From Campylobacterales bacterium (GTDB lineage Bacteria; Campylobacterota; Campylobacteria; Campylobacterales; QNZT01), in NCBI GenBank assembly GCA_027066435.1, contig JAMONX010000035.1, positions 1-46,812 of the forward strand: a stretch of DNA of 46,812 nucleotides. Reading direction: 5' to 3'. Positions within the stretch are counted from its first letter, which is position 1, and each line of letters opens with the position of its first letter. A program made the translations under genes and the position numbers. Under the pieces are notes generated by a model. It was not told where the DNA came from, did not search any database, and saw nothing but the letters and a program-made list of their open reading frames with translations. Shown here piece by piece: positions 19,273 to 41,267 of the stretch.

Positions 19273-19290
19273 TATTTCATTTTGAAATAT
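19272..19290. promoter_or_regulatory. Inverted repeat ATATTTCA-N3-TGAAATAT before methyltransferase remnant
   Basis: ATATTTCA-TTT-TGAAATAT has perfect 8-bp arms. Its centre lies 35 bases before TATAAT at 19316-19321. A related dyad with the same 3-base spacer is found at 39218-39232, 36 bases before its -10, and imperfect copies occur at 41084-41202. Confidence 0.5.
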
Positions 19291-38866: not shown

Positions 38867-38894
38867 ATAGATGATGGATTACTCCATCATCTAT
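38867..38894. terminator. Bidirectional terminator after glnK
   Basis: ATAGATGATGGA and TCCATCATCTAT form a perfect 12-bp stem around TTAC. T-rich sequence follows rightward and the convergent DUF3144 stop codon lies in the right arm, so it can end both transcripts. Confidence 0.7.
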
Positions 38895-39159
38895 TCTCTT
38901 TTATATGTTTGATGTATGACTCAATATTTTCTTCAAGCATAAGGCTATAATCATCTAAAAGCCTTTTTTTAATAACCTCTTTTTCCCCTTCAAAATCTTC
39001 ACTTACTACTGATAATTCAAATGCACTATATCTAGCCGCCGCAAAGCGAAGAGCTGTTCCAACAGTTCCAGAGGTGTCTTTTTGTGAAAGATCATTTGCT
39101 AAGTTGATAAACTTATCAGCACAGTTATAAAGCTCTTTCATATCAAATTCTTGACTCAT
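38887..39159 (-). CDS. DUF3144-family small protein
   Basis: The 90-residue soluble protein (ADKFINLANDLSQKDTSGTV, RFAAARYSAFEL, LMLEENIESYI) matches the DUF3144 pattern of a helical acidic protein. Function unknown. I place the start at 39159, where AAGGA lies upstream of an ATG; a longer frame to 39255 would cover promoter-like AT-rich DNA. It converges on glnK. Confidence 0.75.
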   Translation of the reverse strand: MSQEFDMKELYNCADKFINLANDLSQKDTSGTVGTALRFAAARYSAFELSVVSEDFEGEKEVIKKRLLDDYSLMLEENIESYIKHIKENR

Positions 39160-39217
39160 TTTAATTCCTTCTATAATTTTGTTTAATTTTACACTAGTTG
39201 CCCTAAAATATAAAAAC

Positions 39218-39232
39218 ATTTCAAAATGAAAT
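39218..39232. promoter_or_regulatory. Inverted repeat ATTTCA-AAA-TGAAAT before RhuM-like gene
   Basis: Perfect 6-bp arms with a 3-base spacer, centred 36 bases before TATAAT at 39261-39266. The element at 19272 before the methyltransferase remnant has the same core and nearly the same spacing, and both are followed by ATTTTT. It also lies upstream of the divergent DUF3144 gene. Confidence 0.5.
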
Positions 39233-39293
39233 ATTTTTATGCTGTTTTTAACCATTTATATATAATAATAGTATAAATAAAATCAAGGAGAAA

Positions 39294-39710
39294 ATGATGA
39301 GTACAGAAATAATCCCTTACCAATCACAAGCAGATGATAGTGAATTAAATGTTTATTATCATAACAACACTTTTTGGCTAACTTTAAATAACATGAGTCA
39401 ACTATTTAATTGTAGTGCACAAAAAATTTATTCAACGCTAAAAGAGGTGAGTAAAAAAGATGCATTTGGCACAATGGTTGTAAACCAACATATAGAAGTT
39501 ACTTCAAGTAGCGGTAAAAAATCTATTGGAAATTTTTACAATCTTGATATCATTATGGCAATTGGTTATAGGCTTAATCCAAATCAAGCAACAGAGTTTC
39601 GTTTATGGAGTTTGTTTATGATTAAAAACTATATATTTCAACAGGCAAAGATACAATATAGTGTAGTTGGGAGCCTTAAAAGAACATTCTCACATATGCT
39701 GAGTGCATAA
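39294..39710 (+). CDS. Short RhuM-like protein
   Basis: The 138-residue protein resembles the N-terminal domain of RhuM-family proteins: NVYYHNNTFWLTLNNMSQLF, the helix-turn-helix-like AQKIYSTLKEVSKKDAF, GKKSIGNFYNLDIIMAIGYR and TEFRLWSLFMIKNYI. Full RhuM proteins are about 300-340 residues with a C-terminal domain absent here, so this is either a truncated gene or an autonomous DNA-binding form. AAGGAG is 4 bases before the ATG. RhuM genes are typical of genomic islands. Inverted repeats lie upstream, and a convergent membrane-protein gene shares its terminator. Confidence 0.7.
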   Translation: MMSTEIIPYQSQADDSELNVYYHNNTFWLTLNNMSQLFNCSAQKIYSTLKEVSKKDAFGTMVVNQHIEVTSSSGKKSIGNFYNLDIIMAIGYRLNPNQATEFRLWSLFMIKNYIFQQAKIQYSVVGSLKRTFSHMLSA

Positions 39711-39732
39711 AAGAGGTTTGCCTCTTTTATGC
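39705..39732. terminator. Shared bidirectional terminator with both stop codons in the stem
   Basis: GCATAAAAGAGG and CCTCTTTTATGC form a perfect 12-bp stem around TTTG. The RhuM-like stop TAA lies in the left arm and the stop of the convergent membrane-protein gene lies in the right arm, each as GCATAA, so both genes end inside one symmetric terminator. Confidence 0.7.
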
Positions 39733-41061
39733 TACTGCTTTTTCAACAACCTCCATATATACAAATCCCATTTTTTGATTTACAAACATAATTTCACCTT
39801 CCATCTTCATAAAATATTGTCCTATCTGATGAGGTGTTATGACAATGTCATACTCTTTAAAAGCTTTTATAATATCTCTTCTTGAGGGATGATTTAGGTA
39901 TCTATTTTTTCCAACTTTTATAAATTTATTTTGCTCTTTTGCCATTACTTTGGAGGCTTTTTTGATTTTTGTAAAAAGGCTGTCACTTAAATTCTCTTTT
40001 TCTAAATCTTGATGGGGATATTCCTTGTTTATTGATTTATCATTGTCATAGCTTTTCATTTTCATCATCTTTCTTGTGTTTGCTTGTACTTGTGGTGTGC
40101 CATTGACATTTGGGTTTGATTTTACGATCATAAATAGTAAAAAAGCTAAAATTCCATCTATGATTTCACCTCCGATTGCCACTATAAGCCCTATATATTT
40201 GTATTTATCTATAATATTTTCATTATTTATCGATTCACTCTTATAATAATCTATCAAATCCTCTGTGGCTTTATCTGCTTGTGATACTTGGTTTTGTTGT
40301 ACACTATTTAATTTATCTTGGGCGTCTGCAATTTTTTGATTTATATTTAAAATCTTTCGTGACCATTTTTGCTCAATTTTACTAATTTTTTTGCTAGCTG
40401 AGAGCTTCTTTTTTGCGATATATGTACGATAAATATTTGGGTTTTTCCCTGAAATATAACTCTCTAGCATCTGTTCAATGGAGCTAATCTCTCTTTGTTT
40501 TGCACTCTCATAGCTATCTCTTGTTTTTGTAAGAGCTAAAATCACTCTATCTTTACTCTTAGATGCAATAGAAGTATGAGTTTGCATCTTTTGCTCTTTT
40601 AGTTTAAAAACTACACTCTCTTCTAGTTCGGTATTCATATATCGAAGAGAAAAATCTGCAATTTTTTGGACTCCTTTTGCATTTATAATTATTAAAACCA
40701 TTATGATGGCAAGTGCTGCCATAGCTTGCCAAGTACGGTTACTTCCTGAAGAAAATATAGCTCCTTTTATCGTTGCAATTTTTGCCTCTTCCGCATAAAA
40801 AGCAATATAAAATCCCAATATTAATGAAGAAAATAGTGCAATATAATATACATCCACACCCATAATAGGAGCAAATTGAAAACCTCTTATAAATTCTGCA
40901 ACGATAAAAGAGATTGCTACAGTAGTTATTGTTATAAATAGATGCCCTATAAAGTTTCTAAATCTACTAAATAGATATATACTCATATCTCCTACAACAT
41001 TTACAGATTGGTTCATCTCATTTACATATTTGTCCATTTTTTTATATTTTGAACTGGTCAT
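39727..41061 (-). CDS. Unknown membrane protein with long periplasmic or cytoplasmic coiled coil
   Basis: I do not recognise this 444-residue protein. It has transmembrane segments at about 38-58, 72-90 and 110-130, a coiled-coil region rich in Lys/Glu/Gln (about 140-275, including SKSKDRVILALTKTRDSYES and KKISKIEQKWSRKILNINQK), a fourth membrane segment at about 288-310 (YIGLIVAIGGEIIDGILAFL) and a charged C-terminal domain with a possible winged-helix-like part (about 380-440; HPSRRDIIKAFKEYDIVITP). AAGGG precedes the ATG. The gene converges on the RhuM-like gene and shares its terminator; several TTTCA/TGAA dyads lie upstream. Plasmid- or phage-type accessory protein is the best guess. Confidence 0.7.
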   Translation of the reverse strand: MTSSKYKKMDKYVNEMNQSVNVVGDMSIYLFSRFRNFIGHLFITITTVAISFIVAEFIRGFQFAPIMGVDVYYIALFSSLILGFYIAFYAEEAKIATIKGAIFSSGSNRTWQAMAALAIIMVLIIINAKGVQKIADFSLRYMNTELEESVVFKLKEQKMQTHTSIASKSKDRVILALTKTRDSYESAKQREISSIEQMLESYISGKNPNIYRTYIAKKKLSASKKISKIEQKWSRKILNINQKIADAQDKLNSVQQNQVSQADKATEDLIDYYKSESINNENIIDKYKYIGLIVAIGGEIIDGILAFLLFMIVKSNPNVNGTPQVQANTRKMMKMKSYDNDKSINKEYPHQDLEKENLSDSLFTKIKKASKVMAKEQNKFIKVGKNRYLNHPSRRDIIKAFKEYDIVITPHQIGQYFMKMEGEIMFVNQKMGFVYMEVVEKAVA

Positions 41062-41083
41062 AAATTAGCCCTTATATTAAATT

Positions 41084-41202
41084 TATTTCAAAACAGAATA
41101 TATAATATATTTAATTTAAATAGAATAAAATAATTCTATTAAATATTTCAATATGGAATTAAAAAGGTTTATTCTTTTAAAAAATATTACATTATGAAAT
41201 AT
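41084..41202. promoter_or_regulatory. Cluster of imperfect TTTCA/TGAAA dyads
   Basis: Within the gap 41062-41267, three sites resemble the ATATTTCA-N3-TGAAATAT element: around 41084-41101 (poor right arm), 41143-41161 (ATATTTCA-ATA-TGGAATTA) and 41184-41202 (ATATTACA-TTA-TGAAATAT, one mismatch pair). They sit between the membrane-protein gene (leftward) and the lapB-like gene (rightward). Confidence 0.45.
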
Positions 41203-41267
41203 CAAATAAACTCAGGTTAATAGGAAAAATTTGATACAATATCTATAAAAATAATAGGATAACTGAT

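Follow-up and report, generated by a model that had tools for sequence, protein, structure and literature searches.

Surrogates of LexA as such are already known from Bacteroidetes and Francisella (PMC8565304, PMC13148647). Repressors of the S24 type usually control their own gene along with a set of SOS-type genes, and lineage-dependent change of the LexA binding motif has been documented (PMC8565304). Among Campylobacterota, Helicobacter pylori and Campylobacter jejuni are without lexA, and H. pylori has been described as having no classical SOS response (PMC2912397), while in C. lari an S24 gene was noted and a complete SOS response is still to be shown (PMC7118207). No description of a LexA-type regulon in Campylobacterota was found in the open-access literature; for subscription papers, such an absence proves little. 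To our knowledge, the phylum, the operator and the outputs described below are new.

The DNA studied is contig C35 of a 2.44-Mb Campylobacterales draft genome, and the window, i.e., the whole stretch that was analysed, comprises 46,812 nucleotides. The locus of interest consists of two convergent genes: a short RhuM gene on the forward strand (39297..39710; 137 aa) and, on the reverse strand (39727..41061), a gene for a 444-aa membrane protein, hereafter MEM, which belongs to an undescribed family as judged from the lack of a family match and the alignment of its orthologues. The start of the short RhuM gene at 39297 was picked from an alignment, with the ATG at 39294 being an alternative (138 aa). 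Both genes run into a shared bidirectional terminator (39705..39732), the hairpin of which (−19.9 kcal/mol, z −4.8) has a perfect 12-bp stem and holds both stop codons, in agreement with the initial annotation, where one symmetric terminator had been assigned to the two genes. The TTTCA/TGAAA dyads reported there 5' of each gene were also recovered. An exact SOS-type box, ATTTCAAAATGAAAT, lies 5' of the short RhuM gene (39218..39232), while the three copies 5' of MEM are imperfect: one at 41186..41200 (one mismatch), one at 41145..41159 (one mismatch) that overlaps a −35-like hexamer (41146-41151), and a degenerate one at 41085..41099 (three mismatches), which is identical in the related genome G026 and present as a one-mismatch version in G216.

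The unit had originally been placed as an insertion between nitrogen-control and housekeeping genes. Its accessory, inserted nature holds, as relatives without it exist, but the stretch concerned is longer than claimed: it extends between glnK and a TPR gene from about 38875 to 41220 and includes a DUF3144 gene (38887..39159, reverse strand; Pfam DUF3144, 3.1e-19). In G107 and G026, both of the same genus, glnK and the TPR gene are only about 90 bp apart and the DUF3144 gene is missing between them, the G026 copy being located elsewhere. In several further members of the family, glnK and the TPR gene are also found near each other.

The box motif can be written as ATTTCA-N3-TGAAAT, and ATTTCANNNTGAAAT at 39218-39232, 5' of the short RhuM gene, is its sole exact copy at the gene pair. 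Five sites with no more than one mismatch are present in the window, compared with 1.09 expected, and none of 100 shuffles reached five. Similarly, when the 200 bases 5' of MEM were shuffled 3000 times, two sites with at most one mismatch never arose. Elsewhere in the window (19274-19288), an exact SOS-type box is located directly 5' of a decayed C5-cytosine methylase frame with several stops.

Genome-wide analysis revealed 16 exact boxes in the own genome against two sites for the reversed control pattern, and 209 against 15 in the 22 genomes of the family. The box precedes recA in all 17 of the family genomes compared (16 exact, one with one mismatch), as well as the main S24 repressor gene in all 19 genomes with upstream sequence (18 exact, one with one mismatch). 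In the own genome, the genes behind the box include, besides recA and the S24 repressor gene, rmuC, a TIGR03916 radical-SAM repair gene with its TIGR03915 partner, an integron integrase, a D12 methylase, the decayed C5 methylase, a full-length RhuM gene and others, and some of the 16 exact sites have no clear target gene. Boxes in eight further genomes precede rmuC (five genomes), recQ (four) and a Y-family polymerase (two), together with radC, more integron integrases, methylases and toxin-antitoxin-like genes. Integron integrases with an upstream SOS-type box were recorded at L073 (369-1331), L068, L193 and L214; in some genomes they are intact, and one own-genome copy is broken. A further group behind SOS-type boxes (L194, L208, L227, L237, L240 and L241) comprises, in several relatives, small proteins of 74-88 aa with two hydrophobic stretches, which are perhaps another membrane output of the damage response.

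Because the same box precedes recA, the S24 repressor gene and repair genes across genomes, it is highly probable, judging from sequence, that the short RhuM gene and MEM are both members of an SOS regulon, a statement that concerns their control and not the activities of the two proteins. Each of them shares its operator with recA and the repressor gene, and the box is kept at 13 of 14 short RhuM genes and at all three MEM orthologues, and at neither of two MEM paralogues. With copies of the box 5' of both genes, the earlier claim that they share one type of operator stands; its private character had to be given up, as the box is distributed genome-wide, is of SOS type and occurs in two genomes with no RhuM match (G107 and G006, with 7 and 16 boxes, respectively).

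The short RhuM protein scores 41.2 bits against PF13310 (gathering cut-off, 33.7) and covers profile positions 4-58 of 252 only; the initial annotation had credited it with just the putative DNA-binding half. Stand-alone genes of this type, coding for about 126-140 aa, are present in 14 of the 22 family genomes and missing from eight. Most copies in genus g5 lie between a gspF/pilC-type gene and rpe, and those in g1 are found at several places. In 13 of the 14 genes, the box is positioned 73-79 bp 5' of the start codon (nine exact, four with one mismatch), and the remaining one, in G225, has no box within the 95 bp of upstream sequence with which its contig begins. A tail such as SHMLAVA or SRLLSA is conserved in 11 of the 12 aligned proteins.

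The short RhuM protein was modelled with AlphaFold (pLDDT, 81); the model is similar, at modest TM-scores (0.4-0.57), to BRO-N and to the N-terminal domains of Ant proteins from viruses, and a fold search of the PDB with this model gave no match at E ≤ 0.001. Weak matches to antirepressors were obtained in PHROGs, and in PADLOC the protein matches candidate models PDC-S05 and PDC-S23 only (94 bits to PDC-S05). DinD of E. coli is an SOS-regulated protein related to BRO-N; the short RhuM protein as a relative of DinD was rejected at the sequence level (hhalign probability, 0.1). Since G107 and G006 carry boxes and no RhuM match, RhuM is not the general reader of the box, and its candidacy as a private repressor of the operator was ruled out by the same genomes. 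A DNA-binding or antirepressor-type role is likely, because the model resembles BRO-N and Ant proteins. From its architecture, the protein might bind DNA and, as a small antirepressor-type factor, modulate the damage response, a proposal that we regard as tentative. It may also be asked, in full accordance with SOS control, whether, in the course of the damage response, the protein targets the S24 repressor or the repressors of prophages as an antirepressor or co-regulator. The likeness to BRO-N and Ant domains, the antirepressor matches in PHROGs, the fixed distance of the box at 13 of 14 genes and the exact box of the full-length RhuM gene in the own genome argue for this role, while the modest TM-scores, the lack of a PDB match at E ≤ 0.001 and the eight of 22 genomes without the short gene argue against it, leaving it possible at best.

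MEM contains four hydrophobic segments (residues 36-61, 63-90, 108-135 and 289-314) and, between the third and fourth, a charged helical stretch, in line with the four membrane helices and long coiled coil first ascribed to it. The helical stretch (residues 136-288; 40198..40656, reverse strand) is coiled-coil-like according to the secondary structure of the model and varies by indels between orthologues. It is followed by a C-terminal domain (residues 360-444; 39730..39984, reverse strand) that is also encoded by itself in a prophage-like region of G225. The AlphaFold model is poor as a whole (pLDDT, 53), with residues 151-280 at about 60-90. Based on hydropathy and charge, the N-terminus and the C-terminal domain would be placed inside and the coiled coil outside. 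In Pfam and NCBIfam, nothing above cut-off was obtained for MEM, while PHROGs gave no useful match and PADLOC none; its C-terminal domain had nothing above cut-off in Pfam, and PDB sequence searches with three profiles yielded nothing convincing. In line with the earlier view, homologue and family searches assigned MEM to no known housekeeping family. A single-sequence scan of phage and plasmid records, IMG/VR and GTDB contigs produced no match and no annotated phage record with a homologue was found, whereas the MEM profile matched one viral contig out of 2.9 million in IMG/VR. This contig (L245, IMGVR_UViG_3300028042_000420) is a prophage fragment with a broken-frame homologue located between a CI repressor and an endolysin, and a diversity-generating element (reverse transcriptase, Avd and variable protein) is found nearby. 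In G225, a 462-aa protein encoded in a prophage region (L018, 6787-8175; G225:C144) has no Pfam match and a MEM-like layout of membrane segments, helical stretch and C-terminal domain.

Among 299 genomes of the order, full MEM homologues are confined to the own genus and comprise three orthologues and two paralogues. The orthologues of G026 and G216 are 68% and 67% identical to MEM, respectively, with indels in the helical stretch, and are preceded by boxes at positions that match those of the MEM array, the G216 boxes being weaker (one, two and three mismatches). A second S24 gene stands divergently next to MEM in G216; on that side of MEM, the G026 contig has the start of an S24 gene at its edge. 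As several boxes precede MEM and a LexA-like gene adjoins it in these two relatives, leaky expression of the protein is suggested to be harmful. No box precedes the two paralogues, those of C145 and C211. The latter lies on a 4.8-kb contig, and the former shares its contig with caspase, AAA, NB-ARC and TIR genes: at L013 (5911-17067; G000:C145), genes for a caspase, an AAA ATPase, a large NB-ARC/FGE-sulfatase protein and a TIR-TPR protein adjoin it, forming a conflict-type cluster with almost no PADLOC match. All five full MEM proteins have Ala-rich C-terminal tails (KAVA, KVAA, KLAA), and such tails in both families (MLAVA, MLSA, KAVA, KLAA) could serve as protease tags for quick removal.

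The broken prophage copy, the paralogue among conflict genes, and the boxes and S24 neighbours of the orthologues make MEM look like a mobile family, the orthologues of which in the own genus have apparently come under the SOS-type box of the host. The most likely reading of MEM is that of a mobile effector of prophage or plasmid type that the SOS response triggers, and its action at the cell envelope is our guess from the architecture. As a first guess on its effect, we put forward, with some reserve, that it transiently blocks division or membrane function. A variant compatible with SOS control, which we consider rather unlikely, would make MEM a captured phage exclusion, lysis or abortive-infection protein that kept its SOS control from prophage induction. 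The broken homologue between CI repressor and endolysin, the lone C-terminal domain in the prophage-like region of G225 and the conflict-type genes beside one paralogue would suit such an origin; on the other hand, no lysis or exclusion family was matched, and MEM was encountered on just one of 2.9 million viral contigs and in no annotated phage record.

The S24 gene product (218 aa) consists of a CI-type helix-turn-helix and an S24 domain, and Ala97-Gly98, Ser139 and Lys176 are invariant in an alignment of 17 members. An Ala-Gly site and a Ser/Lys pair are the residues expected for self-cleavage in LexA and CI. The protein has the architecture of a LexA-type repressor in all these parts, while its score to canonical LexA (TIGR00498) is 27.5 bits against a cut-off of 110.95. 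The gene is present in 21 of the 22 family genomes, the G026 copy being a fragment at a contig edge, and the S24 profile has matches in 234 of 397 sampled genomes of the phylum at E ≤ 1e-15, with strong relatives (E below 1e-60) in many families. Matches in families f10 and f13, which we guess to be those of Campylobacter and Helicobacter, are mostly weaker or lacking, with G452 and G358 as exceptions. Outside the own family, 28 S24 loci were compared (27 without one repeat). In most f20 genomes, the same box is located within 90 bases of the S24 start, usually at −28. Related palindromes with a CA-N3-TG core and other outer bases precede the gene in most genomes examined of f6, f8, f15, f16 and f18, e.g., TTAACA-N3-TGTTAA in f15/f18 and ATTTCA-N3-TGTAAT in f8. 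In g6, one and the same altered box, ATTTCA-N3-TGACAT, is found at recA of G197 and at the S24 gene of G234, and the second S24 copy of G197 has the box ATGTCA-N3-TGACAT.

It is likely from these sequence comparisons that the S24 protein stands in for LexA in the own family and in much of Campylobacterota. What the comparison establishes at this level is a common box with its set of downstream genes, the conservation of the cleavage residues and a conserved placement of the box at the short RhuM gene and MEM. The gene for the 218-aa S24 repressor lies at another site of the genome. In the undamaged cell, this repressor would occupy the ATTTCA-N3-TGAAAT boxes and keep recA, the S24 gene itself, the short RhuM gene and MEM repressed. 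After damage, RecA filaments would trigger cleavage of the repressor at Ala97-Gly98, and the genes would be turned on. We infer binding of the S24 protein to the box, its RecA-triggered cleavage and the induction of both genes. That some other factor reads the box, with the S24 gene as just one more of its targets, might explain why the S24 copies adjoining MEM in G216 and G026 lack a good box; however, the palindrome 5' of the S24 gene diverges family by family (f15/f18, f8), the recA and S24 boxes of g6 are altered alike, and S24 repressors of SOS-type genes usually regulate themselves as well (PMC8565304), so that this alternative is improbable.

The initial annotation had further proposed the pair as an undescribed defence, immunity or plasmid-derived module. 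The pairing recurs in one more genome (G216), but 12 of the 14 short RhuM genes have no MEM neighbour, G225 not being judgeable as its contig starts 95 bases upstream. Adjacency was seen in two of the three genomes with MEM orthologues, in differing arrangements (convergent and tandem), and at two of 14 short RhuM genes, while in G026 MEM has boxes and the RhuM gene is on a different contig. Of the module proposal, the accessory, mobile and undescribed nature of the MEM family remains, but nothing found speaks directly for phage defence, the short RhuM protein matching PADLOC candidate models only and MEM none. That the two genes form a defence or immunity module, with RhuM as repressor of its own operator and MEM as effector, is very improbable, since the shared box type, the adjacency in two genomes, the PDC-S05/S23 matches and the caspase, AAA, NB-ARC and TIR genes beside a MEM paralogue are set against a box that precedes recA, S24 and repair genes even in genomes with no RhuM match, a majority of short RhuM genes without MEM, a boxed MEM apart from RhuM in G026 and the lack of any PADLOC model for MEM.

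The preferred reading is that of a predicted LexA-type SOS regulon, with a named repressor, box and gene list, in many relatives of H. pylori and C. jejuni. The gene pair would represent accessory outputs of this response, namely a widespread small RhuM-type protein and a mobile membrane protein of an unnamed family. The data suggest loss of the SOS response, rather than its original absence, in the best-known Campylobacterota pathogens, and, because integron integrases are among its members, the regulon has a bearing on stress-driven gene capture. A bolder combination, doubtful when taken as one, would have MEM and the adjoining S24 copy (in G216 and, by the gene start at the contig edge, G026) form a mobile repressor-effector cassette plugged into the LexA-like network of the host, silent until damage and then acting at the envelope, with the short RhuM protein as a feedback regulator and an SOS response ancestral to Campylobacterota but lost in its best-known pathogens.

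Compared with described systems, the regulon is closest to the non-canonical LexA regulators of Bacteroidetes, which are likewise autoregulated and of S24 type and, in a phylum believed to have no LexA, are proposed to govern SOS genes, but which use CTAA-N5-TTAG and GGA-N5-TCC boxes (PMC8565304), whereas the present case concerns another phylum and ATTTCA-N3-TGAAAT, and is predicted from sequence. FddR of Francisella is also a phage-type CI/S24 repressor in charge of the DNA-damage response, but is confined to one genus, while the S24 protein is found in 234 of 397 sampled genomes of the phylum (PMC13148647). With canonical LexA (TIGR00498), the S24 protein shares the self-cleavage half and the likely role, and differs in its CI-type DNA-binding half (27.5 vs. 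110.95 bits). The short RhuM protein has the N-terminal region in common with the RhuM family (PF13310, PDC-S05/S23), but lacks the long C-terminal part and is stand-alone, chromosomal and controlled by an SOS box. SulA, YneA, SidA and TisB are SOS-controlled division inhibitors or membrane toxins that are tightly repressed, several of them acting at the membrane. MEM resembles them in its predicted SOS control and, for several of them, in membrane location, but it is far larger, combining four membrane segments with a coiled coil and a C-terminal domain, and no sequence similarity of MEM to a named family was found.
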